From: a virus
Virus record (IMG/VR): IMGVR_UViG_3300009408_000011
Coordinates: 1 to 43,398 of that record
Strand: one strand, 5' to 3'
DNA length: 43,398 bases
Position 1 is the first letter of the stretch; the number at the start of each line of letters is the position of its first letter. Shown here one piece after another: positions 2,795 through 41,156 of the stretch. A model generated the notes under the pieces. That model was not told the origin of the DNA, made no database searches, and saw only the letters and a program-made list of their open reading frames with translations. The position numbers and the translations under genes are program-made.

Positions 2795-2795
2795 C

Positions 2796-2978: not shown

Positions 2979-2979
2979 C

Positions 2980-3564: not shown

Positions 3565-3595
3565 TTCTCTCTCCTTTAGTTAATTGTTAACTTAC

Positions 3596-3622
3596 TTATC
3601 GGTCGCTATTTAGAAAACTTTA
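3596..3622 (-). promoter_or_regulatory. Sigma-28 (FliA)-type promoter
   Basis: On the minus strand this reads TAAAGTTT, 11 bases, ACCGATAA: 15 of 16 consensus positions with exact spacing. It lies in the 66-base gap between the DNA polymerase stop (3631) and the metallophosphoesterase start (3564), so it should drive 3564 to 144. No good sigma-70 hexamers overlap it. Confidence 0.8.
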
Positions 3623-3630
3623 GCTATTTC

Positions 3631-4572: not shown

Positions 4573-5686
4573 CTCTCTTAGTTAATTCTAGTAAACTCTC
4601 TGCCTGCTTCTTTCTAATCCTTATAGATCCTCTGTCTTGAAGAATCTTCCCTGACTTATGCCATGCTGCGAGGTGTCCCTTCTTAAAACTCGGGTTACCT
4701 CCACCATTACCGTTCTTATCAGGTTTAGTAAGGAAAGGGGTCTTAATCCCTAATATCCCGTTGTACAGAAGGAATAGATCTTTAGTACTCCCAATATTGA
4801 ACTCACATATCTTCTCTCTGTCACCAAAAGGTAGTCCTTGTTCAATCTTCTGTCTTCTACTCTCCCTACCTCTTTCGGTTTTTACATTAGGATCATTGAT
4901 ATAGGCGTCTTGCTTTATATTAATAGCCTTAGTAATATCTACTTTATGTACATGGAGGAAATCACTCTTCATCTTCTCCAACTGTAACTCCGCCTCTTGT
5001 ACACATTGCTGTAATAGGTCTCTATCTACCTTGACTCCTCCAATGAACCCCTCTACAAGCTGCTCACACCGTCCTCTGTACAGTTGATGATCAGTTATAT
5101 ACCCAGTGTACCCATCCTTCTTAAACTGCTCAATCAGCTCTTCATACAGCCTTAACGTGTTCTCAGTATCACCGCAGTTGTACCTCTTCATCACATCTTC
5201 TGGCAGATCTTTAATGTGAGCACCGAACTTAGTATTCATACCTATATTCTCTCTTACCCAGCTCTCTGCTTCTGCCTTGTGATTGTGATACTTCTCATCC
5301 AACCACCTACTACAGCAAGCCACGAGGCTGAGACCTTCCTTAGTCTCACCCCCTTGCTTCTTGTATCGTTTCTTGTATAGCTTCTGCTCTGATCCTGCAT
5401 CTCCTACTTGACAAAGACGCATTGTACACCAAATCTCCTTAAACTTAATGTCTGGGTACTGTGAGGCTAGTACACCCGTTTCGTATTGAAGTCCGTGTAC
5501 AATAATCCTAACATCCCTCTTGGATAGAGCACGTAATGCATCTCCAACATCCTCATGACCCTTAACATGTTTACTGACCATCTCTCCTAAGTCATCTCTC
5601 CAGGATATAGCCACATCAGTTACCCTAAAGTCTTCATGCCAGTAGTCCAAGCCAGATGCTTCAAAATCTATTGACACATCTCTCAT
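4493..5686 (-). CDS. DNA polymerase family A, N-terminal (3'-5' exonuclease and thumb) part
   Basis: It starts at ATG 5686 behind AAGGAGGGG. It begins VSIDFEASGLDYW, the DxE exonuclease I motif, and continues with a VHGLQYETGVLASQ-type Exo II and a YNCGDTENTLRLYEEL Exo III region. It then runs through the thumb to the family A motif 1 segment ATGTKTGRLS. There it runs into a stop after GGAGERG, because the polymerase domain continues in another frame (3631-4572). It is the replicative polymerase of the phage, next to its RecA-like ATPase, exonuclease, helicase and primase. Confidence 0.88.
   Translation of the reverse strand: MRDVSIDFEASGLDYWHEDFRVTDVAISWRDDLGEMVSKHVKGHEDVGDALRALSKRDVRIIVHGLQYETGVLASQYPDIKFKEIWCTMRLCQVGDAGSEQKLYKKRYKKQGGETKEGLSLVACCSRWLDEKYHNHKAEAESWVRENIGMNTKFGAHIKDLPEDVMKRYNCGDTENTLRLYEELIEQFKKDGYTGYITDHQLYRGRCEQLVEGFIGGVKVDRDLLQQCVQEAELQLEKMKSDFLHVHKVDITKAINIKQDAYINDPNVKTERGRESRRQKIEQGLPFGDREKICEFNIGSTKDLFLLYNGILGIKTPFLTKPDKNGNGGGNPSFKKGHLAAWHKSGKILQDRGSIRIRKKQAESLLELTKRDGRWHVGMQATGTKTGRLSGGAGERG
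4512..4517 (-). other. Homopolymer at the DNA polymerase frame change
   Basis: A run of six G (minus strand) lies exactly where the two polymerase frames overlap. Losing one G (or a +1 ribosomal shift) restores a single family A polymerase of roughly 680 aa. The codon context CTC TCG GGG GGT has no classical -1 slippery heptamer for this direction. Confidence 0.7.
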
Positions 5687-5687
5687 A

Positions 5688-6530
5688 TTACCCCTCCTTA
5701 ATCTTAATCAACTCGCTTAAATCAGCCTTCATTAGTTTAGGTAACTCCCCTGAACTAAGTCTACAGCTGAAGTTTGAGGTCTTCTTAACGATCCCGTTCA
5801 CATCCTTAGAAACCTTAGTAGATACAACCCGTGAGTCAAATACCCGGATAGTTTCCTTTTTACCTGTGTCAGGATCATCTCTGACTAAAGGAGTTACTAC
5901 TACCCTATCTCCGAATTTCTGTAAAACACTCTCAGCTAGTCCATATGTACCTAGTTGTGGGATACATCCTAACAATGCCCCCTCTTCGTCCGTATCACCT
6001 ACAGTCAAGATACAGGTCACAATAATATGAATGCCTGTCTTAGATCGAATGTTCTGTAAGGAGTTCATTAAACCACTAGCTATCCTCTTGGTTGCTGGAG
6101 TTAGCTTAAACCCATCTACCTTACCTTGTGAAGTTAGGCACATCTTCTTAAGTTCCTTACTGTCACTGATACACATATCCATCTCAGTTAATCCGTCAAG
6201 TACAATAGCCCCGAAACCTTGATCTTTAAGACCCTGGGGGTCAGATAGGATAGCTCTAAGTCGGCTTAACGTCTCATCAGGGTCTAAACTCTTTTTACCA
6301 TCACTATCTAAGCAGTAAGGTATGATGTTGTCACTACCCTCTTTCTTACTGGAGTCGATACCGTGTCTCTCCCCCACAAAATGTAGAAAGAGTGTTTTAA
6401 CTCCTAAGGTACCAATCGCATGAGATTTACCCGCTCCACTCGGCCCTAATACACAACAAAACAAACTGTTACCTGACTTGTCTGCTGCCTCTTGTTTCTT
6501 TGACTCAGTTAATAGTTCTGCTAAACTCAT
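5688..6530 (-). CDS. RecA-like P-loop ATPase (Sak4/AAA_24 type)
   Basis: Walker A GPSGAGKSHAIGT lies at about residues 28-40 and Walker B is FGAIVLDGLTEMD at about residue 108. Next comes a long helical region, then a strand ending IIVTCILT, as in RecA-fold sensor regions. The 280-aa length and position beside the polymerase match phage Sak4-type single-strand annealing/recombination ATPases. It probably binds ssDNA with the OB-like protein at 11405 during replication and recombination. It starts at ATG 6530 overlapping the upstream small ORF's stop. Confidence 0.8.
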   Translation of the reverse strand: MSLAELLTESKKQEAADKSGNSLFCCVLGPSGAGKSHAIGTLGVKTLFLHFVGERHGIDSSKKEGSDNIIPYCLDSDGKKSLDPDETLSRLRAILSDPQGLKDQGFGAIVLDGLTEMDMCISDSKELKKMCLTSQGKVDGFKLTPATKRIASGLMNSLQNIRSKTGIHIIVTCILTVGDTDEEGALLGCIPQLGTYGLAESVLQKFGDRVVVTPLVRDDPDTGKKETIRVFDSRVVSTKVSKDVNGIVKKTSNFSCRLSSGELPKLMKADLSELIKIKEG

Positions 6531-6679
6531 TTTGCTCTCCTTAGTTTTTCTTTAGTTAAGTCTGACATTTCTTGCTGTAGCATTTCTATTCGGTAGTATA
6601 GGGACTCAATCTTAGCAGCCAACGACAGGCATTCAGAAAATATATAATCCCTTCTATCCTCTAGCTCTTCGTCTGTCAT
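6527..6679 (-). CDS. Small coiled-coil protein, 50 aa (copy 1 of a tandem duplication)
   Basis: It starts at ATG 6679, overlapping the stop of the 23-aa ORF upstream (TATGA), and ends overlapping the ATPase start. It is rich in Glu, Leu, Arg and Gln with heptad-like spacing (IESLYYRIEMLQQEMSDL), so it probably forms a coiled coil. The same MTD start and IExLQQE segment occur in the ORF at 6892. The two come from a roughly 213-bp tandem duplication that also copied the upstream gene's 3' end. No known function. Confidence 0.65.
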   Translation of the reverse strand: MTDEELEDRRDYIFSECLSLAAKIESLYYRIEMLQQEMSDLTKEKLRRAK

Positions 6680-6727
6680 ACTGACCTCAACAAGTTATTC
6701 TTCTGTTTCTTGGTTCTCTTTTCAGCT
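6672..6727. repeat. 56-bp direct repeat, copy 1
   Basis: Identical over 56 bases to 6885-6940. It holds the last codons of the exonuclease gene (KRTKKQKNNLLRSV and stop) plus the ATG of the next small gene. It marks one edge of a 213-bp tandem duplication. Confidence 0.95.
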
Positions 6728-6747
6728 AGTAGTTCTTGTAATCCCAT
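6676..6747 (-). CDS. 23-aa coupling peptide made from a duplicated exonuclease tail
   Basis: It starts at ATG 6747 behind a strong AAGGAGAG. It encodes MGLQELLAEKRTKKQ and then the same NNLLRSV stop as the exonuclease at 6889. It therefore looks like a leftover of the duplicated 3' end that gained its own ribosome-binding site. Its stop overlaps the next start (ATGA style), so its most likely value is to bring ribosomes to the gene at 6679. The peptide itself may have no function. Confidence 0.5.
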   Translation of the reverse strand: MGLQELLAEKRTKKQKNNLLRSV

Positions 6748-6892
6748 TTTCTCTCCTTAATGTTCTTCGATTAATCTCATCGGCCTCTTGTTGTAATTCT
6801 TCTATTGACTCATAAATCTCTTCGATCCTATCCCGTAGGGCCTCACAGCGGTTATCAATCTCGTCTAATCTACGTTCGTCCCTATCTGTCAT
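6722..6892 (-). CDS. Small coiled-coil protein, 56 aa (copy 2)
   Basis: It starts at ATG 6892, overlapping the exonuclease stop in the same TATGA arrangement as its paralogue at 6679. The heptad-like stretch RDRIEEIYESIEELQQEADE predicts a parallel or antiparallel coiled coil. Its last 17 codons overlap the 23-aa ORF in another frame. The family is unknown; it is probably an accessory to the neighbouring replication proteins. Confidence 0.6.
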   Translation of the reverse strand: MTDRDERRLDEIDNRCEALRDRIEEIYESIEELQQEADEINRRTLRRENGITRTTS

Positions 6893-6940
6893 ACTGACCT
6901 CAACAAGTTATTCTTCTGTTTCTTGGTTCTCTTTTCAGCT
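6885..6940. repeat. 56-bp direct repeat, copy 2
   Basis: Identical to 6672-6727, offset by 213 bases. This copy is the genuine 3' end of the exonuclease gene. Confidence 0.95.
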
Positions 6941-7680
6941 TGTGGGTGTCTCATCGTATGTCCACAGTCCTTACACTTAAATCTCACGTACTTTTGTGAG
7001 TTTGTGTAGTAGTACCCGTTCTTAGCAATCTCGGTTGACCTACATACATTACAAGTAACCTCTTCAAGGTCTCCACTGTTAGCTAGGTTAGCATGTTTCT
7101 TATCCCACGCCCTTAGTTTGTTGTAGACTTCCTCAAGTAGAATGACATCTTGAATATTATAAGACATCATGTGATCAAACGCCTTAGTACTTTTATTCAA
7201 ACAGATATCTTTCCAAGTCTCAAAACCTCCTGGGTCCATCTTAGCGTCGTCAGTAATAGCTTTACCAATGAAGGATAGTTTATTTGATGTAAATCTGAAG
7301 TTCTGTTTAGCCATCCTCAACGTATCCATCAACTTATAGGAGCTAGGTGGTTGCATACCTTGTTGGATAAATCTACTGTTTAGTGTCTTGACATCAAAGT
7401 TAACATTATGTGCTAACACGTAGTCAGCTTCATCCAACATCTCCCATACAGACTCTAGTATCTTGATATCATCCTCTGGATCTTTCTTCCACTTGGCTTT
7501 ATGAAAGTGTAGTGAGTCATAGTAGTAATAATCGTCGTCTAACCACTTAGCACACCAACACAGTACATACATATCTCTTGCTATTTGACTTAATCCCACA
7601 TTCTGCTGCCACAACCCCCAAGTATAGGATAGCAGTGGTGCTGTCTCGATATCTAGTACTAGTATTTTTGGTTTACTCAT
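6889..7680 (-). CDS. DnaQ-like 3'-5' exonuclease with C-terminal zinc ribbon
   Basis: The start is ATG 7680 with AGGAG upstream; the GTG at 7695 is less likely. The RNase H-like exonuclease motifs are VLDIETAP near residue 8, LAHNVNFDVKTLNSR in the middle and YNIQDVILLEEVY near residue 175. These match the family of predicted exonucleases related to PolB and YprB. The last 50 residues contain CNVC and CKDC pairs, which form a zinc ribbon for nucleic-acid binding. It lies in the replication operon and may process ends or proofread. Its 3' end is duplicated just downstream (6672-6727). Confidence 0.85.
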   Translation of the reverse strand: MSKPKILVLDIETAPLLSYTWGLWQQNVGLSQIARDMYVLCWCAKWLDDDYYYYDSLHFHKAKWKKDPEDDIKILESVWEMLDEADYVLAHNVNFDVKTLNSRFIQQGMQPPSSYKLMDTLRMAKQNFRFTSNKLSFIGKAITDDAKMDPGGFETWKDICLNKSTKAFDHMMSYNIQDVILLEEVYNKLRAWDKKHANLANSGDLEEVTCNVCRSTEIAKNGYYYTNSQKYVRFKCKDCGHTMRHPQAEKRTKKQKNNLLRSV

Positions 7681-7888
7681 CTCCTGTCTCCTCACAATCA
7701 GAATCTCCGGTCAACGTAATTATAGGTTTGTAACAGATCACTCCATCCTCTACCCCATAATCAGTCACCCTAGTAACTAGACCGACAGAATCTAGACAAG
7801 GGTACCCTACAGAATTATGTGTTCTAATGGCTACCTCTGTATAATTATCAAACCTATTCAGTATTTTAATTAGATCTTTCACTAGCAT
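7673..7888 (-). CDS. Hypothetical 71-aa protein (phage MLVKDLIxxLxxFD family)
   Basis: It starts at ATG 7888, overlapping the helicase stop, with GGAG ten bases upstream. The opening VKDLIKILNRFDNYTEVAI is the pattern of a widespread small phage protein with an N-terminal helix and a strand of the type FDPDTEV. The C-terminus is acidic. No activity is known. Its 3' end overlaps the exonuclease start. Confidence 0.7.
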   Translation of the reverse strand: MLVKDLIKILNRFDNYTEVAIRTHNSVGYPCLDSVGLVTRVTDYGVEDGVICYKPIITLTGDSDCEETGDE

Positions 7889-9336
7889 CTCTTACTCCAC
7901 TTCAAACTCTCGTTAAAATCCTTGTTAATCAGCTTCTTTACTGACCCCCACACCCATCTGAAATTCTTGTCTCCTACTATCGTGATAGAACTGTCATCCA
8001 CTCCCCTTGTGCTCCTACCTGCTTGCTGTATCAATGTCTGCATAATCTGTAAATTGTACCAAGTGTCTCCATCATCTAGACCTCTTCTCTTCTTTACTGC
8101 TGGGTCTCCTAAGTTAGGTTTAGACATCCTAGGTACTAAGTTTAGTCTGCATTCCTCTCCTGGTAAGTCCAATCCCTCGGAACATGCTGCTGCCAGGAAT
8201 AGTCCACCCTCTTCCTTAAACTTGTTTATGCTCTCATCCTTAGTATCCTTGGTGTTAGCTATACATCCCGGAAAGAAAGGCTTAAGCTTCTCCACATCTG
8301 AGTAAGTTAGGTGTACGATCGTATTACGGTCTGGGTATTTCCTCATCTTACTCTTAATCCAAGATGCGATCAACTTAGGCTCAGTCTTGTAGTTCATAGG
8401 GAATACAGCTGGTTCAACCTTTACTTGCCTACTGTCTGCTGGTATTGGTGTACCTATCTCAGTGAACTCAAACTCCTCATGCTGTAATAGTTCCTTAACT
8501 CCTGGTGTGTTTATCGTGGCTGACATCAATACGTTCTTAGTACCACCAAAGAAAGCGTCTATAATAGTCTTAGGGGGTGTGATCGGCTTAATACAAGTAC
8601 CTCCTATATCATTATAGATCGTATATACGTGAGGTGATCCACTTAATCCCTTGTACACCTCCGATATCTTATCTATTCTACGGTTAAGTTTCTTTATTTT
8701 TTCATGCTCACCTTTCTCTGTAGCCTTTCTCTGATCTCTTAGTGACTGTTTGACACCTCCCAACCAAATTAGAGTATCTGGAGTAGTTAGAGATTTAGGT
8801 TTCCCATAGACCTTGGGGTTAAGTGTAGCTCCGCTCATCAACATAAACGAATTAAGTAATGTGTGGCACTCATCAACTACCATAACGTTAGGCTGTTTAA
8901 ACCCCTCTCTCTTCTTTACGAAGATGTATGAGAAAGGATTAACAAACGTTGGCTCCCCATCCAAGCATCTCTGCACTGATCTCTGGTAGTCACATTCTAT
9001 TGGACAAGACGTCCCGTAGATCTCTTTAGCATCAGAACAGTTAAGTTTAGGGTTGTCCGGTAGTCTAGAACAAGTATAGTGATCCATACCCTTCAAGTAA
9101 TTAATGTTTGGGTAATCCCTAATCAACTGATCCATTAATACGTTTGTAGGTACAACGTAGACACCTCCATGCTCTAGGATCAAGGCTACACCTATACCAC
9201 TCTTCCCTACTCCTGTACCAGCCTGAAGTACGGTAGTTGGAGATGCCCAAGTATCCTCAATATACTGTAAACCTGTAATCTGGTGTTGGCGAGGTTTTCT
9301 ACCTGACCTATCAAAGTTTTTTATCAGTTTGCTCAT
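7882..9336 (-). CDS. Superfamily 2 helicase, DinG/XPD-like, with four-Cys insertion
   Basis: It starts with a Q-motif-like region (KPRQHQITGLQYIE) and Walker A AGTGVGKSG near residue 40. An insertion at about residues 84-125 holds four or more cysteines (YTCS, NCSD, SCPIEC, RC), as in the iron-sulphur domain of XPD/DinG helicases. The DECH box follows at VVDECHTLL and motif VI is QQAGRSTRG. The 484-aa length is short for DinG but usual for phage versions. It should unwind DNA 5'-3' in replication. It starts at ATG 9336 with AAAGGAGG, directly below the sigma-28-type promoter at 9384. Confidence 0.88.
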   Translation of the reverse strand: MSKLIKNFDRSGRKPRQHQITGLQYIEDTWASPTTVLQAGTGVGKSGIGVALILEHGGVYVVPTNVLMDQLIRDYPNINYLKGMDHYTCSRLPDNPKLNCSDAKEIYGTSCPIECDYQRSVQRCLDGEPTFVNPFSYIFVKKREGFKQPNVMVVDECHTLLNSFMLMSGATLNPKVYGKPKSLTTPDTLIWLGGVKQSLRDQRKATEKGEHEKIKKLNRRIDKISEVYKGLSGSPHVYTIYNDIGGTCIKPITPPKTIIDAFFGGTKNVLMSATINTPGVKELLQHEEFEFTEIGTPIPADSRQVKVEPAVFPMNYKTEPKLIASWIKSKMRKYPDRNTIVHLTYSDVEKLKPFFPGCIANTKDTKDESINKFKEEGGLFLAAACSEGLDLPGEECRLNLVPRMSKPNLGDPAVKKRRGLDDGDTWYNLQIMQTLIQQAGRSTRGVDDSSITIVGDKNFRWVWGSVKKLINKDFNESLKWSKRC

Positions 9337-9353
9337 CCTACCCTCCTTTCAAA

Positions 9354-9803
9354 TTACTTATCGGTATCTTTCTGATAAACTTTAGCTAAATCTTGATAAA
9401 ATTTACCGTTTCTCATACTCTCTTTATCATTAGCAGTCTTGTTTTGGTGGCACGAGATACATATTCCTTGTAGATCCTCAGCCTTACAAAAAAGTCTACT
9501 GAAGTAAATATCAACTGTCCACCACTTCGGGGTGTTTTTAGATCCTATAAATCCACCACAAGGGAACTTGTGATCTATCTGAAACTCTTTTGGGGCTTTT
9601 AAGTCTTTCTTTCCACATACCTCACACTCGTATCTTCTAGTGTAGCACTGTTTTCCTTTACGTAGTTTAGGGTCACCGTTTTTCTTAAACGCAGGAGTTG
9701 CGGTTTCACATCTCTTAAGTGCCTTCTTGCGTTCATCGGACATAAAGTATACCCGTCTAAGTGCTAATAATATCCTATATCTCATTGGTGCTGATAAGTT
9801 CAT
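9354..9803 (-). CDS. HNH endonuclease
   Basis: The first zinc knuckle is YECEVCGKKDL, followed by FQIDHKFPCGG (the catalytic DH) and LQGICISCHQNKTAND, the second Cys pair and the terminal H/N of the HNH site. At 149 aa it is a complete small HNH nuclease. It lies within the replication operon rather than beside the terminase. It could be a free-standing homing endonuclease or a DNA-processing enzyme. Its last codons contain the sigma-28-type promoter for the next gene. It starts at ATG 9803 after AGGAGAA. Confidence 0.85.
   Translation of the reverse strand: MNLSAPMRYRILLALRRVYFMSDERKKALKRCETATPAFKKNGDPKLRKGKQCYTRRYECEVCGKKDLKAPKEFQIDHKFPCGGFIGSKNTPKWWTVDIYFSRLFCKAEDLQGICISCHQNKTANDKESMRNGKFYQDLAKVYQKDTDK
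9358..9384 (-). promoter_or_regulatory. Sigma-28 (FliA)-type promoter inside the HNH gene end
   Basis: The minus strand reads TAAAGTTT, 11 bases, ACCGATAA: 15 of 16 consensus positions with exact spacing. It occupies the last ten codons of the HNH gene and lies 22 bases upstream of the helicase start, giving an internal start for 9336 to 3631. Confidence 0.75.
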
Positions 9804-9825
9804 CCTGTTCTCCTAAAACAATCTA

Positions 9826-10623
9826 TCACGCTTGCCTCCTGGCTTGTGTTACAATACTAATTAACTCATCTTCTGTCTTACTGTTATCCCACTCTCTGGT
9901 TATACTAGTTAGAAGGTCGTATACCGTGGCATCGGCCAATCCCCCATGTATAAGATCTTTAGAGATACACCATAGAGCTGTATGTCTGTTACCTAGTTTA
10001 GGTTCATTCAATCCTAGGTCTGTCAACTGTATCAACGAGTCCGCTAAACCCATATCCATATTATCTTCTCCTCCCTTAAATACGTACTTAGGTTTTTCAA
10101 CTATAGGTACTATAGCCTTCTCTCCTTCTACATACTTTACAAACTTCTTAACCAACCTCGTCTTAGGGTGTACCCGGCCTGGTAAGCTTAGAATCCTACC
10201 ATGCTGATAAAGACTTTCATCGCAATCCACCCCAATAGATAAGAGATACTGAAGGTGAGAGTAAGGCAAAAAGATATTGCACATAAAGTCAGTAGAGATG
10301 AATAAATGAAACCCTTTGGATCCAGAGAACCATACCTCATAACCTAATCCCTCCCTTTTTAGTATCTTTTCTGTTTGTTCTAGTTGTGTTTCTCCGTCAT
10401 CTAGGTCAATAGCGATCCTACTGGCTCCTACCTCAAACCTATCAAACCCTGCTGACCGTCTACTATCCCGGATCTCCATAGCGTCTTCTTTGTTGAAGGA
10501 GTACACGGAAGTATAGCCGGAAGAGTACTTGGCTTTAATTATCTTCTCAACCAGAGACTTCTTGATCATAGTTCCTTTACGACCTCTCGGAGTCCTTACC
10601 CACTCTACGTATCTATCTTCCAT
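9826..10623 (-). CDS. Archaeo-eukaryotic-type primase (AEP/PrimPol-like)
   Basis: AEP hallmarks are IAIDLDDGE at about residue 70 (the DxD metal ligands) and FSGSKGFHLFIS at about residue 100 (the SxH motif). The conserved RILSLPGRVHPKT region follows. The C-terminal 60 residues (GNRHTALWCISKDL to the end) resemble a primase C-terminal helical domain. It should prime phage replication, together with the family A polymerase and the helicase. It starts at ATG 10623 with AAGGAG upstream. No separate DnaG- or DnaB-type gene is present, so this is the primase. Confidence 0.85.
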   Translation of the reverse strand: MEDRYVEWVRTPRGRKGTMIKKSLVEKIIKAKYSSGYTSVYSFNKEDAMEIRDSRRSAGFDRFEVGASRIAIDLDDGETQLEQTEKILKREGLGYEVWFSGSKGFHLFISTDFMCNIFLPYSHLQYLLSIGVDCDESLYQHGRILSLPGRVHPKTRLVKKFVKYVEGEKAIVPIVEKPKYVFKGGEDNMDMGLADSLIQLTDLGLNEPKLGNRHTALWCISKDLIHGGLADATVYDLLTSITREWDNSKTEDELISIVTQARRQA

Positions 10624-10634
10624 GTCCCTACTCC

Positions 10635-11405
10635 TTATAGATTGTCTAGATCAGAGTTACCCTTAATTACTTTACCTGGATACATCCTCACAACTTCAAG
10701 TCTAGTTAACTTGTCTTCGATGTCGAAGTCTGTCATCACTGCTAGACAGTCATCATAAGAATTACCTGTAAGCTTAACCACAGTACCTTCGGAATCTTTC
10801 TTGGTAGCGATCTTACCTTTCAAGAACACTGCATACTCATCAGAGTCTTCCACTTTAGAGATATAGTACCCTAAGTACCCTAGATCAACTTCAAATGTCT
10901 TGCCGATCAACTTAGGGTACGAGTATCCTTTTACATCTACCATCTCTTGTTCTTGCTCGCTGAAGGCTTTGTAATCAATGATCTCTGTTTTGTCTGCTGC
11001 AATAAACTTGGTTTGAAACTTGTCTAGTTCAGATGCCTTAGGTGACTCACTGATTGCCTTTAGGAATTTTATTGTCTGGCTCCAGCAGAACATAGTCTTC
11101 TTACCTCCTGGCTTCTGGTACTCGATGTTCTGAGTGATAGGGATGAGTGGGTAGATTCTAATCTCTCTGTCATCTCCCTCAACCCCTGTACCTAAGGTAA
11201 CACATAGGCTCTGCCACTTCTTGTCAGCACACACCTTGTTGAACCTAGCCCCTACAATCTTTAATTCGTAGTGCCCTTGATCAAAGTACTTACCAGTGTT
11301 CTCAGCATCCAATTTCTCTTGTACTGCTTCGTCACTGTCAAACACTGCTGTGGACTTGTCTAGGACAATTGTTGGTAATACTGGTAACTCATTTAACCCT
11401 GTCAT
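10635..11405 (-). CDS. Putative ssDNA-binding protein (DUF669-like)
   Basis: The 256-aa product has a segment YFDQGHYELKIVGARFNK followed by a strand (KKWQSLCVTLG). This is the pattern of phage OB-fold-like proteins of the DUF669 type that bind ssDNA. It has conserved aromatic residues, an acidic character and a C-terminus ending SDLDNL, as in SSBs whose acidic tail recruits partners. It sits between the Cas4-like nuclease and the primase, the usual place for a phage SSB. No catalytic motif is visible. It starts at ATG 11405 with AAGGAGAAG. Confidence 0.6.
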   Translation of the reverse strand: MTGLNELPVLPTIVLDKSTAVFDSDEAVQEKLDAENTGKYFDQGHYELKIVGARFNKVCADKKWQSLCVTLGTGVEGDDREIRIYPLIPITQNIEYQKPGGKKTMFCWSQTIKFLKAISESPKASELDKFQTKFIAADKTEIIDYKAFSEQEQEMVDVKGYSYPKLIGKTFEVDLGYLGYYISKVEDSDEYAVFLKGKIATKKDSEGTVVKLTGNSYDDCLAVMTDFDIEDKLTRLEVVRMYPGKVIKGNSDLDNL

Positions 11406-11406
11406 A

Positions 11407-12225
11407 CTACTTCTCCTTGTTTAAAGTTAATACTTCGTTAATAAATTCTTCTACACTCAAATCTTCTTCATCTGTCTTGTCGCATACATCCTTTAGATCA
11501 CACCAGCTACACGCACCTCTTTCGTCGTTTGCGTTCATTGGTCTATCTGCTACGTAAGGTGTATTTAACATCTCTGCTGCTGCTACCATATGGTTAACTG
11601 CATCTAGTGTTGTATACCCACTCAACCTACCATTGACCAAGATGTCTCTATTCTCTGAGAACGTGATCTCAAACGTGTACGAATGAGGTTCTTTAGTATC
11701 TCGTCTAATCTTAGGTTTGATCTCAAGTTCGCCTGTCTCTTTATTCTTCTTCTCGCTGTACCCATCTATGTGTAAGTAGCCTAGAGGTAAATCGTAGATC
11801 ACTAAGTAACCTACTAACTGAGCTAATTGGTTTATCTTTATCTCTTCCCGTTTAGCTGCTCCAAGAGCACTTGAGTTCATAGAAGACTTGTTCTCGTGAA
11901 CTACAAAAGTGTCAGAATCATGCTCCATAGTTAGGAAGTCTGTTCTTGCTGAGTAATTTACTTCCCCAATACCTAGACTCTGTACTATTGGTATCTCATC
12001 AAGAATAAGGCTGTATTTACCGGAATCAACTAGCTTGCGGTAGAAGTTTAATTCATTAATCTCACCCATCCTTGCGTACTTCTCAGGTATGTTTGACTTC
12101 AACCCGGCCTTAGCTGCAAGTATATGTCTCAAACATCCTGAACTGTACTGCGTGTCTACCCTCTTTCCATCCATGAAGGCTGCTGCGGAGGCTCCTATTG
12201 TTTGTTTAATTTTAACTCTCTCCAT
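11407..12225 (-). CDS. Cas4/RecB-like PD-(D/E)XK exonuclease with Fe-S cysteines
   Basis: ATG 12225 fits the GAAGGG ribosome-binding site; the upstream TTG (12252) lies inside the previous gene. The nuclease core shows GEINELNFYRKL, the metal ligand region YSARTDFL and VVHENKSS (E-x-K). The C-terminal CSWCDLKDVC plus an N-terminal SSGC give the four cysteines of the Cas4 iron-sulphur cluster. Phage Cas4-like nucleases resect DNA ends for annealing recombinases, which fits the Sak4-type ATPase and the SSB-like protein in the same operon. Confidence 0.8.
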   Translation of the reverse strand: MERVKIKQTIGASAAAFMDGKRVDTQYSSGCLRHILAAKAGLKSNIPEKYARMGEINELNFYRKLVDSGKYSLILDEIPIVQSLGIGEVNYSARTDFLTMEHDSDTFVVHENKSSMNSSALGAAKREEIKINQLAQLVGYLVIYDLPLGYLHIDGYSEKKNKETGELEIKPKIRRDTKEPHSYTFEITFSENRDILVNGRLSGYTTLDAVNHMVAAAEMLNTPYVADRPMNANDERGACSWCDLKDVCDKTDEEDLSVEEFINEVLTLNKEK

Positions 12226-12751
12226 AGTCATACCCTTCAATACGATACTCAAACCTACTTAACGTATTATTAAATATGGTTGAGTTGTTATCTCTATACA
12301 CACACTTACGATACAAATGTTTAGGATTGATTTTATATACAATGTACGTCCCCACTTTCAGGGGGTTTGTATCGTGGGGTATATAGTCTACATCCTCCTC
12401 CGTACCAGATCCGACCAACTCCTTCGATCTAGCTTCCAACTCTTCCTTAGTCTTTCCTTTAAACTTATGCTCATTAAAATATCTGATCAACATCGCCATA
12501 TTACATCTCACGTGCGCTGCGTGTTGTAGTCCAGACTCTTCATCAATAAACTCACCTTGTAGGATAGCGTTACTATGTCTGAGAGCAGATTGCATTACTA
12601 CCTCAACTGTCTTATCTCCCCACAGCTTCTCCCAATTGTTTCTACCGTACTTCTTCTCTCCCATAGACCAAACCTTAGCTTCTTCGATTAAGGCGTCTAC
12701 CGGTGTGATAGTGAAGTCAATCTTGCCTGTATTAAATCTCTTAGCAGTCAT
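12212..12751 (-). CDS. dATP/dGTP diphosphohydrolase-like protein with extra C-terminal domain
   Basis: Residues 1-90 match the phage dATP/dGTP diphosphohydrolase (DUF5664) pattern: RFNTGKIDF, then EEAKVWSMGEKKYGRNNW, SALRHSNAILQGE and GLQHAAHVRCN. The paired helices carry the Glu and His metal ligands of the all-alpha NTP pyrophosphatase family. The last 55 residues (from about HDTNPLKVGTY) form an added beta-rich domain. It probably remodels the dNTP pool. No adenylosuccinate synthetase-like PurZ is present, so there is no case for a 2-aminoadenine genome. It starts at ATG 12751 with GGAG upstream. Confidence 0.75.
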   Translation of the reverse strand: MTAKRFNTGKIDFTITPVDALIEEAKVWSMGEKKYGRNNWEKLWGDKTVEVVMQSALRHSNAILQGEFIDEESGLQHAAHVRCNMAMLIRYFNEHKFKGKTKEELEARSKELVGSGTEEDVDYIPHDTNPLKVGTYIVYKINPKHLYRKCVYRDNNSTIFNNTLSRFEYRIEGYDYGES

Positions 12752-13124
12752 CTGTAGTCTCCACTAAAATATCATTATCCCAAATAGTTTCCTCGGTAAT
12801 ATACCCTAATCTCTTAAAGTCTGAGCTATATAAGACCCTACCATCCTTAAATCTAAGCTGTCCTAGCTCGTCAAATTTTGCGTCAGTAAACTTCTCAAGG
12901 ATCTCTACCATAGTCATAAGTCGGTAGGTCTCCTTTTTAGGTTCAACTATTTTGAACATACAGTTACCCCAATGAAAAGGTTTTAAGACCTCTCGCTCCA
13001 TATCTGCGTATATTAATACTCCATCTGATATTCTTATAGGACTTACTCCTACTGTATGTACAGTAGCACCCTCATCCAACATAGCCTTAAAGGCTTCCCC
13101 GATTGTTAAATTATACTCGCTCAT
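12741..13124 (-). CDS. Hypothetical protein with IGEAFKAMLDEG motif, 127 aa
   Basis: It starts at ATG 13124 behind AAAGGAGAAG. The opening LTIGEAFKAMLDEGA is a helix of the kind that begins many DUF2829/Tad2-like phage proteins, followed by beta strands up to FKIVEPKK. A second, similar unit (TMVEILEKFTDAKF to VLYSSDFKRLG) makes up the C-terminal half, suggesting an internal duplication of a small alpha/beta domain. If the likeness is real, a ligand-sequestering role is possible; this is weak inference. Confidence 0.75.
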   Translation of the reverse strand: MSEYNLTIGEAFKAMLDEGATVHTVGVSPIRISDGVLIYADMEREVLKPFHWGNCMFKIVEPKKETYRLMTMVEILEKFTDAKFDELGQLRFKDGRVLYSSDFKRLGYITEETIWDNDILVETTDDC

Positions 13125-13446
13125 CTTGCTTCTCCTTTAAATAATCTGGTCCGAAGACCACGTTAATAGCTGAGGATAGACTCCAAGGATGTTCCCCTAC
13201 TTCTTTGATCAACCCTACATAGTACTTTATAAGTTGATGGTCTAGAGCAAACCCCAAACCTTCAGCAATATCTTTGTCTGTACTAGTGTCTCTTATCTCG
13301 TACGAGGCTACTATCCTTTTGTTACCAACTACAATACTTACTACCTTACATGTACCATCCTCACTGGTAAATGACGTAGGTACTAATCCTCTGTCACATA
13401 AATCTTGTAATTTTTCCTCGGTCAGAAAGTTCTGCATTTGTTGCAT
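13111..13446 (-). CDS. Hypothetical protein, 111 aa
   Basis: It starts at ATG 13446 with AAAGGAGAAG upstream and overlaps the end of the previous gene by 53 bases. The 3' end codes for YLKEKQD, because it contains the next gene's ribosome-binding site. That 24-base cassette is identical at 13122-13145 and 13444-13467. The protein has an alpha/beta composition with no membrane segment. The function is unknown. Confidence 0.7.
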   Translation of the reverse strand: MQQMQNFLTEEKLQDLCDRGLVPTSFTSEDGTCKVVSIVVGNKRIVASYEIRDTSTDKDIAEGLGFALDHQLIKYYVGLIKEVGEHPWSLSSAINVVFGPDYLKEKQDERV

Positions 13447-13807
13447 CTTGCTTCTCCTTTAAATAATTATCTTCAAGAATCTTCTCAATATTAAACATCA
13501 GGTTCTCGTTGTGTGTTCTCCTCAAGCACCCCTTAGCTCTTACCGTGTTGGTAACTACGATGAAGTGATCCACAATTCTAACATCTAACTTAGACCAAGA
13601 TCTTCCGTCTATAGTAGTGCTACCTAGCGGTTCCAGCCAGTCCTGTAACTTGGCTACATGGAACCCTTCCTTCACTCTACAGACGCTTACAGGCCGTCCC
13701 TTATGTTGGTAAAGTAGGTCCCCCATCTCATCAACAATAGAGATAAACTCATCCCACGTTTTCTTTGTCTTCTTGTCGAACTCTGAGACTATTTTGTTTC
13801 TCGTCAT
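13394..13807 (-). CDS. Hypothetical protein, 137 aa
   Basis: It starts at ATG 13807, within the end of the upstream regulator-like gene. It has a helical N-terminus (TWDEFISIVDEMGDLLYQHKG) and a beta-rich centre (SWSKLDVRIVDHFIVVTN). The last 18 codons overlap the next gene, so its C-terminus may not be constrained. It shares the YLKEKQD ending segment with its downstream neighbour through a repeated ribosome-binding cassette. I recognise no family. Confidence 0.65.
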   Translation of the reverse strand: MTRNKIVSEFDKKTKKTWDEFISIVDEMGDLLYQHKGRPVSVCRVKEGFHVAKLQDWLEPLGSTTIDGRSWSKLDVRIVDHFIVVTNTVRAKGCLRRTHNENLMFNIEKILEDNYLKEKQDATNAELSDRGKITRFM

Positions 13808-14483
13808 CTAACCAAACCAACCTTTCCGCAAGCCGCCACCCTGTGTACCTGTTCCGCAATCCCTCTTCAATGTCCTCATAATAACCTATCTCCCTGGTTC
13901 GTATGCCGTCCCTGTCTCGGTCGATCTTGTTCACCATTACATCCTCTGTAGTCTTTAAAGGGTCTTTGCAGTAATCAACAACCTCGTACTCACTATCCTC
14001 ACTAAAGCGAAAATTTCCAGGATTGTTCACTTCCTTTACACTTGGTAAGAGGAGTTTGTTTGATAACAAAGGTTTATATTTATTGATCCTATAGTCAATA
14101 GTGCTTCTGGGGATATCTAGGATCTCAGATATCTTCTTGGCTGACATACCTTCGCTGTGGTAACCCCACATCCTTTGGTCATCATAGGATTCAAATACAT
14201 GATACCCATCATCTAACTTTATGTGGTTTAACTCACTAGCGTGTTGGTAGTATTGCATCTTACCTGATGGGTCGATTACAGTACCGTGCTGCTCCGAGTC
14301 TTCTGTCAATTCAACGCCACTTACAGTACTTCTGGTTGATAGATGACCTCTGGCTCTACCATTCTTAGGGTCTATTAACTCTATGTCTATAAACCCGTTA
14401 TCCTTTAGAATTGAATACCAATACTCCTGATCACTTAACATAAATCTCTTAGATCTCATAATTTGGTCATCAATAAGTGCCAT
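13749..14483 (-). CDS. Helix-turn-helix DNA-binding protein, possible early regulator
   Basis: ATG 14483 lies seven bases after AAAGGGG; the TTG at 14501 is too far upstream. Around residues 114-140, MSAKKISEILDIPRSTIDYR is a clear helix-turn-helix of the homeodomain-like or resolvase type. It has the A-x-K-I-x-x-x-L...S-T-I-x-x-R pattern. The flanking regions, about 100 residues on each side, match nothing I know. The C-terminus is rich in Arg, Glu and Asp. It could regulate the early-late switch at 15033-15678. It lacks the region 2 to region 4 layout of a sigma factor. Confidence 0.7.
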   Translation of the reverse strand: MALIDDQIMRSKRFMLSDQEYWYSILKDNGFIDIELIDPKNGRARGHLSTRSTVSGVELTEDSEQHGTVIDPSGKMQYYQHASELNHIKLDDGYHVFESYDDQRMWGYHSEGMSAKKISEILDIPRSTIDYRINKYKPLLSNKLLLPSVKEVNNPGNFRFSEDSEYEVVDYCKDPLKTTEDVMVNKIDRDRDGIRTREIGYYEDIEEGLRNRYTGWRLAERLVWLDDEKQNSLRVRQEDKENVG

Positions 14484-14709
14484 CTTCATCCCCTTTGTCA
14501 ATTATGATTTGAATAATCTCGATAAACCTTAAAATACTTTTTCCTTTTGTGGCTCCCGGCATCTCCAACGTCTCATCAGAAGTTACCTCCTGCCCTGTAC
14601 AGTTGAGGTCGGCCAATTTCTCATCAATAATGTAATGATCCTCTTCCTCAGTAATATTGACTGCAATTGGGTCTAAAACCCCCTCAATCTCAATAATTCT
14701 TGTATACAT
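14470..14709 (-). CDS. Hypothetical acidic protein, 79 aa
   Basis: It starts at ATG 14709, overlapping the stop of the zinc-finger gene by one base, with AAGGAGAAG upstream. The product is acidic (EEEDHYIIDEK, DKGDEDG) with alternating beta segments and a hydrophobic helix (RFIEIIQIII) near the C-terminus. Small acidic proteins encoded first in phage operons often inhibit host enzymes. That is a generic expectation, not evidence here. Confidence 0.7.
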   Translation of the reverse strand: MYTRIIEIEGVLDPIAVNITEEEDHYIIDEKLADLNCTGQEVTSDETLEMPGATKGKSILRFIEIIQIIIDKGDEDGTY

Positions 14710-15032
14710 TATACTTCTCCTTGTTGGTTACGGGACTCTACTTGATCCCAAAATAATTTTGCATGAATTTTGTAAAAACACTGATTCTCTCTCTGATCTC
14801 TACCTTCCTCTCTGTACCACTCTGCTTGTGCTGCTTCCATTGCCAGTATCTTAGTATCTAGCTCTACCTGTGTCAACTCTCTGTGCTCTTCCCCTTTCTT
14901 GTCGTAGGATCTTTTTGACTGTTCTGCTTTACAAGGTCTACAAATGTATTCTAAACCATCAAGATGTCTAGACCTCTTCCCAAAAGACATTAAACTCTTA
15001 GACTTCTTACATTTGGTACATACCTTATTCAT
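14709..15032 (-). CDS. Small Cys4 zinc-finger protein, HNH-type knuckle
   Basis: The N-terminus has CTKCKKSKSLMSFGKRSR and then YICRPCKAEQSKRSY. This Cx2C...Cx2C knuckle is common in phage HNH proteins and transcription-related fingers. The usual catalytic HNH residues after it are missing, and the C-terminal half is a charged helix (EEHRELTQVELDTKILAMEA). It is the first gene after the leftward sigma-28-type promoter at 15101, so it is probably made immediately on infection. It starts at ATG 15032 with AAGGAG upstream. Confidence 0.75.
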   Translation of the reverse strand: MNKVCTKCKKSKSLMSFGKRSRHLDGLEYICRPCKAEQSKRSYDKKGEEHRELTQVELDTKILAMEAAQAEWYREEGRDQRENQCFYKIHAKLFWDQVESRNQQGEV

Positions 15033-15074
15033 AATAACTCCTTGTTAGTTGTTGTTCCCTTAATCTTAATACTC

Positions 15075-15101
15075 TTATCGGTTATTGTCTACATAACTTG
15101 A
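15075..15101 (-). promoter_or_regulatory. Main leftward early promoter, sigma-28-like with overlapping sigma-70 hexamers
   Basis: The minus strand reads TCAAGTTA, 11 bases, ACCGATAA (12 of 16 sigma-28 positions, exact spacing). The same stretch also offers TAGACA-17-TAAGAT, a fair sigma-70 promoter whose -10 lies just beyond (to about 15065). It would drive 15032 to 9354. Confidence 0.65.
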
Positions 15102-29364: not shown

Positions 29365-30498
29365 ATGGTAGAGCGAAATGATAGAATAAGGTGGTGTAAC
29401 AACAACCTTACAGAAGCAGCCGATACAACTGTAACAGTTAGCTCTGAACAAGCTCTATTCCCGGCATCTAATCTACAGATACCTCAGAGATACAAGCCGT
29501 GGAGCCCTTCAGGTAATTTTGTAGTGTCTTCGGTATCTACTAAAAATGAGATATACATCAACGACGGAGCCGACAAGACAGTTACAATCACCCCAAGCTC
29601 CTACACACCCTCACAGTTGGCTACCGAGATAGCTACCCAACTAAATACGGTATCTTCTTTATGGTCATGTACTTACACCGGATCTAGATTCACAATATCA
29701 CGATCTTCAGGTACAGCTACTTTGAGATTCTCAGGCCAACCTCTTATCATGTGGGAGTCTATAGGGTTCTTAAGTACTACAGACAGGTCTGGGTTGCTAT
29801 CTTACTCGGCTGAGGAGATACGTATCCACTCTTACGAGACAGTTGATTGGGACTTAGGTGCACAAAGACCTATCACCTTTTTCTCCATAATAAGTAAAAA
29901 GTCAGAACAATTTACTCTATCAACCTCAGCAGTCCTAACCTTAAGAGGTGATAATATACCACCTGTCATAGGTACTACCGCAGCTTTTGAGAGGATTGTT
30001 ACTGTAGGGGATGAAGGAGTATTTGAATTTCTGGATGACACCGCTGATACAAGCTTTAGATATTGGCAGTTGGTAGTACAGGACAAGACCAACCCTCTAG
30101 GATCTACAGCTCTAAAATTCGGTGTTATATATCTAGGAGACTATTTGACCTTAAGCGCTAGAGGACTAGCCAGAGGATTTACTAAGAAGAAGATAGACCC
30201 CTCCCTAAAGAATACAGCGGAGTCAGGTGCAGTCTATTATAAAATTAAAAACAAGTACTGGACCTTTACCGGCCTAAGTACTCAATACTTAAAAGACGCT
30301 GACAGGAAAGACTTAGAACAGTTCTTTGAGGACGTAGGAAACCACGCTCCTTTCTTTATTAGTCTAGATCCTACATTATGTGTATCTACAAAACTAAGCG
30401 AACTAACTAAATACGTCAGGTTTGAGGGAGACCCCTCTTTAGTTCACGTTAAAACTGACACCTACAGTATGGGGTTCAACGTCAGAGAGGATTTATAA
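29365..30498 (+). CDS. Distal tail / minor tail protein
   Basis: It is 377 aa, first after the tape measure, the position of distal tail (Dit-like) proteins. The N-terminal strand region is followed by an inserted module (VTITPSSYTPSQLATEIATQ, then TGSRFTISRSSG) of the same type as in the tail tube protein at 23849. The C-terminal half (YWQLVVQDKTNPLG, IKNKYWTFTGLSTQYL) resembles tail tip proteins of siphoviruses. It starts at ATG 29365 with GGGGAG upstream. Confidence 0.65.
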   Translation: MVERNDRIRWCNNNLTEAADTTVTVSSEQALFPASNLQIPQRYKPWSPSGNFVVSSVSTKNEIYINDGADKTVTITPSSYTPSQLATEIATQLNTVSSLWSCTYTGSRFTISRSSGTATLRFSGQPLIMWESIGFLSTTDRSGLLSYSAEEIRIHSYETVDWDLGAQRPITFFSIISKKSEQFTLSTSAVLTLRGDNIPPVIGTTAAFERIVTVGDEGVFEFLDDTADTSFRYWQLVVQDKTNPLGSTALKFGVIYLGDYLTLSARGLARGFTKKKIDPSLKNTAESGAVYYKIKNKYWTFTGLSTQYLKDADRKDLEQFFEDVGNHAPFFISLDPTLCVSTKLSELTKYVRFEGDPSLVHVKTDTYSMGFNVREDL

Positions 30499-36383: not shown

Positions 36384-36410
36384 TAAAGTTTATACGAATA
36401 CAGCCGATAA
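36384..36410 (+). promoter_or_regulatory. Perfect sigma-28 (FliA) promoter
   Basis: TAAAGTTT (36384-36391), exactly 11 bases, GCCGATAA (36403-36410): 16 of 16 consensus positions. It lies 33 bases upstream of the metallopeptidase start. No good overlapping sigma-70 pair is present, so sigma-28 use is the cleanest explanation here. Confidence 0.85.
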
Positions 36411-36442
36411 GACAATATCAATAACAGATCTTGGGGGAGATT

Positions 36443-36757
36443 ATGATTAAACGAATTACAGCAGTTAAGGGGTTCGACAACCTCACAATAAGTTACAAAT
36501 CCAAGTTACCTAATGATGTGTATGGCTTATGTCATGCAGACAAGGGACTTATAGAAATATCATTAAAGCAGAACAGTACTCAAGAGATGTTAGAAGCATC
36601 CTTGTGGCATGAACTTCTCCACTTAGCATTTTATAGAAGTGGTTGGGGTGAGGTGTTGAGTGATGCTAACCTATCTGAGGAAGGTGTGGTAATCATGTTA
36701 GAAAATGCGTTTAGACAGATTATTTCATTTGAGTACGAAGAAAAAGCTAAAGTTTAA
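36443..36757 (+). CDS. Small metallopeptidase-like protein (HELLH)
   Basis: The start is ATG 36443 after GGGGGAG; a TTG 12 bases earlier is less likely. The 104-aa product has LWHELLHLAFYRSG at about residues 56-69, a zinc-binding HExxH helix as in SprT-like and related small phage peptidases. The third ligand is not obvious (E or D in LSEEG). Substrates are unknown. It is the second HExxH protein in the window, after the lipoprotein at 1322, and the only gene under the perfect promoter at 36384. Confidence 0.75.
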   Translation: MIKRITAVKGFDNLTISYKSKLPNDVYGLCHADKGLIEISLKQNSTQEMLEASLWHELLHLAFYRSGWGEVLSDANLSEEGVVIMLENAFRQIISFEYEEKAKV

Positions 36758-36774
36758 TTGACAGGTGCCGATAA
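36748..36774 (+). promoter_or_regulatory. Perfect sigma-28 (FliA) promoter overlapping the peptidase stop
   Basis: TAAAGTTT (36748-36755), 11 bases, GCCGATAA (36767-36774): 16 of 16 positions. The -35 element overlaps the stop codon of the peptidase gene. It shares its sequence with a sigma-70 promoter and with the left arm of a terminator-like hairpin. Confidence 0.88.
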
Positions 36775-36786
36775 GTGGTTTATGCT
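36758..36786 (+). promoter_or_regulatory. Sigma-70 promoter overlapping the sigma-28 promoter
   Basis: TTGACA (36758-36763), 17 bases, TATGCT (36781-36786): a near-consensus pair nested with the sigma-28 elements. The same dual layout recurs at 40565-40603. Confidence 0.75.
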
Positions 36787-36822
36787 TCGAGAGAGGTATA
36801 AGCCACTGTCGGCACCATTTTT
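36764..36822 (+). terminator. Terminator-like hairpin overlapping the promoter
   Basis: The arms 36764-36783 and 36798-36816 pair over about 17-18 positions with one bulge and one G-U, around a 14-base loop, and are followed by ATTTTT. Transcripts from upstream contain the whole hairpin. Those starting at the overlapping promoter (around 36790) lack the left arm, so only readthrough would be stopped. Confidence 0.7.
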
Positions 36823-38460: not shown

Positions 38461-39009
38461 ATGAATAAACTAATAACAAAACAAGATATTCTAGACCTAA
38501 ATCCTTGTCATTCTATTGAGAAATACAATATCACGAAACCTATTTCTCTAATCTCTATTTTGGAGAGGGATGACGTAGAAAGCTCTGACAAGCTATGGTT
38601 AGTGACTCACTTCCTTACAGACAAAACTAATAGGTTGTTTGCTGTATGGTGTGCTAGGCAAGTACTAACAAAGGATAGTGATTATAAGGTTATTGAGGCT
38701 TGTAACGTAGCTGAGAGATACGCTAATGGGGAAGCTACCGATGCAGAGTTGGACGTAGCAAGGGCAACATCCAGGTCAGCATCAAGGTCAGCAGCCTGGG
38801 CAGCAGAGTCAGCCTCCTGGTCAGCAGCCTGGGCAGCAGCAGAGGTAGCAGCAAAGTCAGTCTGGGCAGCAGCAGAGTCAGCAGAGTCAGCAGAGTCAGC
38901 AGCAGAGGCAACAGTCTGGGCAGCATCAGAGTCAGCAGCAGAGTCAGCAGAGTCAGCATCAAAGGCAGCACAGACCAAACAACTAATCAAAATGTTAAAT
39001 GTTAAGTAA
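38461..39009 (+). CDS. Ala/Ser/Trp-repeat family protein, copy 1 (Imm-5-like)
   Basis: It is 182 aa. Residues 1-100 are a conserved domain (ITKQDILDLNPCHSIEKYN, RLFAVWCARQVLTKD, CNVAERYANGEATDAEL). This matches the N-terminus of Ala-rich proteins I recall as annotated 'putative immunity protein' (Imm-5). Residues 100-172 are built of 3- or 4-residue units of Ala/Ser closed by Trp, Glu, Lys or Arg, predicting a long amphipathic helix. Codons are restricted: NCA for Ala/Ser, and a C-ending codon just before TGG. It ends with a TKQLIKM tail shared by all copies. The function is unknown; it may be a binding scaffold with an evolvable surface. Confidence 0.8.
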   Translation: MNKLITKQDILDLNPCHSIEKYNITKPISLISILERDDVESSDKLWLVTHFLTDKTNRLFAVWCARQVLTKDSDYKVIEACNVAERYANGEATDAELDVARATSRSASRSAAWAAESASWSAAWAAAEVAAKSVWAAAESAESAESAAEATVWAASESAAESAESASKAAQTKQLIKMLNVK

Positions 39010-39033: not shown

Positions 39034-39549
39034 ATGGATAAACTAATAACTAAACAAGATATACTGAACCTAGATCCTTGTCATTCTATTGAGAAATACA
39101 ATATCACGAAACCAATTTCTCTAATCTCTATTTTGGAGAGGGATGATGTAGAAAGCTCTGATAAAGTATGGTTGGTAACTAAATTCTTAACAGACAAAAC
39201 TAACAGATTGTTTGCTGTATGGTGTGCTAGGCAAGTGTTGACAAAGGATAGTGATCCTAGGAGTATTGAGGCTTGTAACGTAGCTGAGAGATATGCTAAT
39301 GGGGAAGCTACAAATGAAGAGTTGGACGTAGCAAGGGCAGCAGCCTGGGCAGCAGCAAGGTCAGCAAAGTCAGTCTGGGCAGCAGCAACGGCAGCATCAA
39401 GGTCAGCAGCAAAGTCAGCATCCTGGGCAGCAGAGGCAGCAGCAGAGTCAGCCTCCTGGGCAGCAGCAAGGTCAGCAGCAGAGGCAGCATCAGAGCCAGC
39501 ACAGACCAAACAACTGACCAAAATGATACAACAAACAAAGGAGAAATAA
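39034..39549 (+). CDS. Ala/Ser/Trp-repeat family protein, copy 2
   Basis: It is 171 aa, with the same N-terminal domain as copy 1 (about 90% identical by eye) and a repeat region of different unit order (AAWAAARSAKSVWAAATAAS). The charged positions are more often Arg here and Glu in copy 1. It shares the AAAGGGGAAATAAC ribosome-binding junction 5' and the TKQLTKM tail 3'. Probably co-transcribed with copy 1 from 36748. The changing repeat between conserved flanks suggests recombination or slippage within the repeat. Confidence 0.8.
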   Translation: MDKLITKQDILNLDPCHSIEKYNITKPISLISILERDDVESSDKVWLVTKFLTDKTNRLFAVWCARQVLTKDSDPRSIEACNVAERYANGEATNEELDVARAAAWAAARSAKSVWAAATAASRSAAKSASWAAEAAAESASWAAARSAAEAASEPAQTKQLTKMIQQTKEK

Positions 39550-40447: not shown

Positions 40448-40475
40448 TTATCGGTTCACCCTGTCAAAAACTTTA
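40448..40475 (-). promoter_or_regulatory. Leftward sigma-28-like promoter, 12-bp spacer
   Basis: The minus strand reads TAAAGTTT, 12 bases, ACCGATAA. The elements are strong (15 of 16) but the spacer is one longer than optimum. TTGACA is present inside the spacer. It points into non-coding sequence with no ORF, so it may drive a small RNA. Confidence 0.5.
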
Positions 40476-40564: not shown

Positions 40565-40591
40565 TAAAGTTTAGTTGACTCCGACCGATAA
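40565..40591 (+). promoter_or_regulatory. Sigma-28 (FliA)-type promoter
   Basis: TAAAGTTT (40565-40572), 11 bases, ACCGATAA (40584-40591): 15 of 16. It drives the third repeat-protein cassette (40635 to 41963). Confidence 0.82.
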
Positions 40592-40603
40592 GTAATATAT
40601 AAC
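40575..40603 (+). promoter_or_regulatory. Overlapping sigma-70 promoter
   Basis: TTGACT (40575-40580), 17 bases, TATAAC (40598-40603). Nested with the sigma-28 promoter exactly as at 36758. Confidence 0.75.
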
Positions 40604-40634: not shown

Positions 40635-41156
40635 ATGGACAAACTAATAACAAAACAAGATATTCTAGACCTAAACCCTTGTCATTCTATTGAGAAACAC
40701 AATATCACGAAACCCATTTCTCTAATCTCTATTTTGGAGAGGGATGATGTAGAAAGCTCTGACAAGCTATGGTTAGTGACTCACTTCCTTACAGACAAAA
40801 CTAACAGATTGTTTGCTGTATGGTGTGCTAGGCAAGTACTAACAAAGGATAGTGACTCTAGGAGTATCAATGCTGTAGACGTAGCTGAGAGATACGCTAA
40901 TGGGGAAGCTACCGATGCAGAGTTGGACGAAGCAAGAGCAGCAGCCTGGGCAGCCTCCGGGGTAGCAGCAGAGGCAGCCTGGGCAGCAGCAAGGTCAGCA
41001 GCAGGGTCAGCATCAAGGTCGGCAGCAGAGGCAGCAGCCGGGGTAGTAGTCTGGGTAGCAGTCAGGTCAGCAGCAAGGTCAATAGCAAGGTCAGCAGCAA
41101 AGGCAGCACAGACCAAACAACTGACCAAAATGATACAACAAACAAAGGGGAAATAA
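40635..41156 (+). CDS. Ala/Ser/Trp-repeat family protein, copy 3
   Basis: It is 173 aa, with the same conserved N-terminal domain (SDKLWLVTHFLTDKTNRLF, VDVAERYANGEATDAELD). The repeat section has more Gly and Val substitutions (ASGVAAEAAW, AAGVVVWVAVRSAARSIA) than the other copies. Either it has drifted or its repeat is under different selection. It has its own dual promoter and a GGAG ribosome-binding site, so it can be expressed independently of copies 1 and 2. It is followed by a near-identical copy of the 37-aa membrane peptide. Confidence 0.8.
   Translation: MDKLITKQDILDLNPCHSIEKHNITKPISLISILERDDVESSDKLWLVTHFLTDKTNRLFAVWCARQVLTKDSDSRSINAVDVAERYANGEATDAELDEARAAAWAASGVAAEAAWAAARSAAGSASRSAAEAAAGVVVWVAVRSAARSIARSAAKAAQTKQLTKMIQQTKGK

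Follow-up and report, generated by a model that had tools for sequence, protein, structure and literature searches.

Can a phage start its main genes with sigma-28 (FliA), the flagellar sigma factor of its host, which is usually viewed as a dispensable motility regulator? This question is raised by positions 36,384 to 36,774 of a 43,398-nucleotide contig of an uncultured phage (IMG/VR record IMGVR_UViG_3300009408_000011; the whole stretch is hereafter the window), where an initial annotation had noticed two perfect matches to the FliA promoter and, elsewhere in the window, five close ones, and had suggested that early and accessory transcription appears to be wired to FliA. We scanned the window, a diverged relative and other viral and prokaryotic sequences for this motif and evaluated which factor may read it. 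The sites are very probably real sigma-28 (FliA)-type promoters, with which the phage appears to start its replication and accessory genes by means of a motile host's FliA, and several of them are interleaved with a sigma-70 promoter.

FliA-type promoters head early and accessory genes

The window carries leftward genes (144-15032), which include polymerase, exonuclease, helicase, HNH and dATP/dGTP diphosphohydrolase-like genes, and rightward genes (15679-35763) for terminase, capsid, tape measure and tail, after which rightward accessory genes follow. A scan of the 43 kb for TAAAGTTT-N11-GCCGATAA that allowed at most three mismatches gave eight matches compared to 0.49 expected, a count that none of 100 shuffled sequences reached. 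Both boxes and the 11-bp spacer of this motif are identical to those of the Escherichia coli FliA consensus (PMC2859248). The seven sites listed at the outset all lie where they had been placed and all keep the exact 11-bp spacer, with 13-16 of the 16 box positions matched: two are perfect, as claimed, and five match at 13-15. A divergent site with a longer spacer is additional to these seven.

89-115, minus strand: FliA promoter, 14/16, 22.3 bits; after gene 144-764 and before a gene truncated at the left contig end
3596-3622, minus strand: FliA promoter, 15/16, 30.7 bits; flanked by the polymerase gene 3631-4572 and the metallophosphatase-like gene 2980-3564
9358-9384, minus strand: FliA promoter, 15/16, 30.7 bits; within the final codons of the HNH gene 9354-9803 and upstream of the helicase gene 7882-9336
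15075-15101, minus strand: FliA promoter, 13/16, 22.7 bits; head of the leftward early operon, with an interleaved sigma-70 promoter
36384-36410, plus strand: FliA promoter, 16/16, 32.0 bits; before the HExxH-type gene 36431-36757
36748-36774, plus strand: FliA promoter, 16/16, 32.0 bits; in the last codons of 36431-36757, with an interleaved sigma-70 promoter
40448-40475, minus strand: divergent FliA-like site, boxes near-perfect, spacer of 12 bp; no downstream ORF of 60 aa or more
40565-40591, plus strand: FliA promoter, 15/16, 28.8 bits; before gene 40635-41156, with an interleaved sigma-70 promoter

The sole change in the three 15/16 sites is G to A at the first base of the -10 box. A weight matrix built from other viral contigs only, which ignores the spacer and has a maximum of 32.0 bits, scored the seven sites at 22.3-32.0 bits, and in the comparison with shuffled sequence that the initial annotation had suggested as a check the top score of 40 shuffled windows was 19.5. 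The matrix gains two positions beyond the motif, a C preceding TAAAG (present at six of the seven sites) and a G following the final A (present at all seven). At one mismatch or fewer, there are roughly 0.5 sites per Mb in 59 bacterial genomes, which belong to the phylum of a Desulfovibrio genome and hold 0-7 sites each, compared to five in the 43-kb window.

All seven sites are upstream of, and point at, non-structural genes. Those at 89, 3596, 15075, 36384 and 40565 fall in gaps directly 5' of ORFs and those at 9358 and 36748 overlap the final codons of the preceding gene, which is the placement initially described. Site 15075 stands before the early operon, 9358 before the helicase, 3596 before the metallophosphatase and 89 before the left-end gene, and 36384, 36748 and 40565 each precede an accessory unit. 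The window scan found no FliA site in operon direction along the head and tail operon (15.68-35.76 kb), consistent with the claim that structural genes are free of them; a minus-strand match at 30266-30292, antisense within the structural gene 29365-30498, was rejected as a real site because its 12.1 bits are at chance level. The phage would start replication and accessory transcription with its motile host's flagellar sigma factor, and the late head and tail operon by other means.

Some of the neighbouring genes are unusual in themselves. A phrog_18326-type gene with Ala-rich repeats occurs in four copies (38461-39009, 39034-39549, 40635-41156 and at the left end before base 67), two of which have a FliA promoter in front; the truncated left-end gene (starting MDKLITKQDILDLNPC...) is a paralog of 40635-41156. 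The small HExxH proteins encoded by 1322-1816 (HELGHCAL, lipoprotein-like) and 36431-36757 (HELLHLAFY) are possible metallopeptidases, and no Pfam or NCBIfam family was found for those scanned. The short protein of 2214-2690 is RlpA-like by eye and had no match in Pfam, NCBIfam or cultured phages and no convincing one in the PDB. The family A DNA polymerase is seemingly split into overlapping ORFs, 3631-4572 (exonuclease and N-terminal part) and 4493-5686 (C-terminal part).

The sites recur in a diverged relative and in many other viruses

Alignments of the terminase and a tail protein yielded a single close relative, IMGVR_UViG_3300023313_000016 (G001), which is colinear with the window and whose terminase is 76% and other proteins 26-75% identical; its polymerase, too, is in two segments, and its counterpart of the RlpA-like protein has 54% identity. 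G001 has at least four FliA sites at positions that match window sites, namely counterparts of 9358, 15075 and 36748 plus one that, as 89 does, lies close to the left end; a mismatch in the -10 box is present at several G001 sites. In the counterpart of 9358 (8035-8061 of the reversed contig), the -35 octamer is identical though the adjoining codons differ. Its right end holds a divergent pair as at 40448/40565, with a weak rightward member, and it has neither a match to site 36384 nor the gene downstream of 3596.

The motif is also found in viruses of very different kinds, from the 43-kb siphovirus-like family to a T4-like virus of 129 kb (G037). Among the matches listed for an exact scan of IMG/VR, many contigs have several sites, whereas among those listed for the fully reversed motif no stretch has more than one; other whole contigs carry 5-15 sites when up to two mismatches are allowed, and a reversed-pattern control is near zero. 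The extended 18-base consensus occurs in 68 IMG/VR stretches at a spacing of 11 compared to 6 at a spacing of 13, and fetched viral stretches contain 223 sites at a spacing of 11 compared to 0-19 at other spacings, a comparison in which the loci had been picked for spacing 11. A same-strand ORF begins within 150 bp downstream of 53-68% of viral sites but of only 11% of reversed-control sites, and 9-19% of viral sites are inside ORFs compared to 68% of the control (in the spacing analysis and one ORF-position analysis each motif half was reversed in place; in the scan of listed matches and the other ORF-position analysis the control was fully reversed). A BLAST search of a consensus 46-mer against phages returned chance-level matches only.

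On one viral contig (L049:458-5037), eleven FliA sites within 4.6 kb precede nearly every small gene. Other contigs with such sites encode a PhaR-type polyhydroxyalkanoate regulator domain near them (L018:1032-1265), or collagen-repeat lipoprotein-like proteins and a subtilase-family protease (L068:10463-12382 and L004:10703-11473).

Some sites contain an interleaved sigma-70 promoter

Three window sites also show a TTGACA-N17-TATAAT arrangement, each with mismatches:

15086-15091 (TAGACA), N17, 15063-15068 (TAAGAT), minus strand: sigma-70 promoter at site 15075
36758-36763 (TTGACA), N17, 36781-36786 (TATGCT), plus strand: sigma-70 promoter at site 36748
40575-40580 (TTGACT), N17, 40598-40603 (TATAAC), plus strand: sigma-70 promoter at site 40565, the final -10 base being C, not T

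A TTGACA-like hexamer starting at motif position 11 was present at 19 sites, these three and 16 others. Of these composite sites, 17 have TAnnnT 17 bp further on, at motif positions 34-39, compared to 4 of 130 other sites (Fisher P = 1 × 10−16, which is optimistic because sites sharing a contig are not independent); many of the composite loci had been picked for TTGAC, none for the downstream hexamer, and with the window excluded the proportion is 15 of 16. The nested pattern occurs in 22 stretches of IMG/VR but only twice in 257 Gb of prokaryote genomes, where one match is a promoter preceding a Desulfovibrio start judged fliM-like by eye and the other is likely due to chance. This nested FliA/sigma-70 arrangement is a new element of the present analysis and is found mainly in viruses.

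With the sigma-70 -35 at motif position 11 and its -10 at 34, transcription from the sigma-70 promoter would start roughly 11 bp further downstream. The initial view that early and accessory transcription is wired to FliA stands in part: the sites precede early and accessory genes, do not occur in the structural operon and far outnumber chance expectation, but the wording is too strong for 15075, 36748 and 40565, as each also has an aligned sigma-70 promoter and the genes behind it should be fired by either holoenzyme. Among the window sites, only 89, 3596, 9358 and 36384 look FliA-only.

The promoter at 36748 further overlaps a putative terminator:

36764-36816, plus strand: terminator-like hairpin followed by T5, -40.6 kcal/mol, z -9.2

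Its 5' arm holds both the FliA -10 and the sigma-70 -10, and G001 has a hairpin at the equivalent place (z -4.2); a simple consensus terminator scan did not list the window's hairpin. Because most of the 5' arm is upstream of the expected start, transcripts arriving from upstream would be stopped and the promoter's own would not, so that one element could end the transcripts from 36384 and start the next unit. Terminator overlap was rejected as a general trait, as any such hairpin occurs at 4 of 200 sites, the window's being by far the strongest.

Host FliA is the likely reader

The sequence, spacing, position and recurrence of the sites and the co-occurrence of both promoter types are direct observations, from which we infer that host FliA appears to be used, and when and to what benefit. 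The FliA/WhiG profile TIGR02479 matched nothing in the window and only once, at 14.6 bits, in 21 multi-site contigs. The sigma region 4 family PF04545 gave a window match of only 21 residues (13.4 bits) in a generic helix-turn-helix (HTH) protein, and short HTH matches in 6 of 22 records (the window and five contigs). With no sigma-factor gene found in the window and most multi-site contigs lacking either family, host FliA is the simplest and, judged from these sequences, the likely reader.

The reader may instead be a regulator too divergent for sigma-family models. That it is a divergent phage-encoded sigma factor with a phage-specific regulon seems improbable to us. Phages such as T4 and SPO1 do carry their own sigma factors, many ORFs of the window belong to no known family and one of the region-4-like HTH matches is above the Pfam cut-off; against this, TIGR02479 is without a match in 21 of 22 records, the region-4 matches are short and absent from 16 of 22, and site 15075, heading the leftward early operon, must be read before any phage sigma factor exists.

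We consider it slightly less probable still that the motif copies are stoperator-like operators of a phage-encoded regulator and that they resemble FliA promoters by coincidence. The early operon does encode an HTH protein (13749-14501), and the three overlaps with sigma-70 promoters would offer a place for repressor action, but the motif shares both boxes and the spacing with the published FliA consensus (PMC2859248), recurs across the very different viruses described above, is oriented toward the downstream gene and at four window sites has no overlapping sigma-70 promoter. Least probable is that the sigma-70 promoters do the work and the FliA boxes are relics or useless, for although three sites of the window and many elsewhere do have a well-placed sigma-70 promoter, a sigma-70 -10 in the fixed position is missing from four window sites and from most of the viral ones, the 35.7-43.4 kb region has 15 sigma-70-like sites compared to 19.1 expected from shuffles, and the FliA boxes are the constant part, kept in the diverged G001.

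Putative hosts and implications of a possible FliA dependence

Phage megablast, tblastn of several proteins, tRNAs and family searches identified no host, and a terminase scan found no relatives in GTDB genomes. In Bdellovibrio bacteriovorus, where FliA is a global regulator, 92 of 140 attack-phase promoters are FliA promoters, and many non-flagellar genes use such promoters (PMC3627812). Because FliA controls most attack-phase promoters there, a Bdellovibrio-like bacterium is a candidate, and the sites would be in keeping with any host that, like such a predator, passes through a phase dominated by FliA. No site at one mismatch or fewer occurs in the cultured tailed Bdellovibrio phages phi1422 and phi1402 or in the flagellotropic phage Chi; without close matches in Chi, flagellotropism alone was rejected as the explanation.

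With host FliA as the reader, FliA-only sites would limit some genes to swimming, FliA-active cells, and composite sites would keep others on under sigma-70 dominance. On balance we lean towards a broader reading, by which widespread phages of several unrelated kinds adopted host FliA for initiation and evolved an interleaved FliA/sigma-70 promoter specific to viruses, whereby their gene sets track whether the host swims or grows. If true, such state-responsive gene sets would fit phages whose hosts are predators or other motile bacteria with a biphasic life, and the interleaved promoter would amount to a two-state switch that is both short and portable. If many phages need FliA, motility state would gate infection after entry, beyond flagellar adsorption; silencing of fliA would be a route to host resistance, and lysis would be directed at swimming cells. 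In metagenomes, the motif could serve as a sequence marker for phages of FliA-dominated hosts.

Comparison with known systems

The early promoters of T4, lambda and T7 use host sigma-70; a host holoenzyme starts infection there as it would here, but in the present phage that holoenzyme appears to be the one with the flagellar sigma factor. The initial annotation knew of no well-described phage that relies on FliA for its main promoters, and we likewise found none reported in the open-access papers searched, which is weak evidence of absence.

Class 3 flagellar promoters of E. coli and Salmonella have the same -35, -10 and 11-bp spacer (PMC2859248); they drive host flagellar and chemotaxis genes, whereas the phage ones precede replication and accessory genes and are far denser. 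The Bdellovibrio FliA regulon is similar in placing non-flagellar genes under FliA, but there the genes are cellular and the reported -35 is TTAAG. Closest to the interleaved promoter are the flagellar operons fliAZY, fliL and fliD, which have dual sigma-70/FliA promoter regions (PMC4183435), so that both sigma factors serve one gene. There, however, the sigma-70 promoters need FlhDC (PMC4183435), whereas the sigma-70 promoter of the phage is near-consensus and interleaved with the FliA boxes at one fixed offset.
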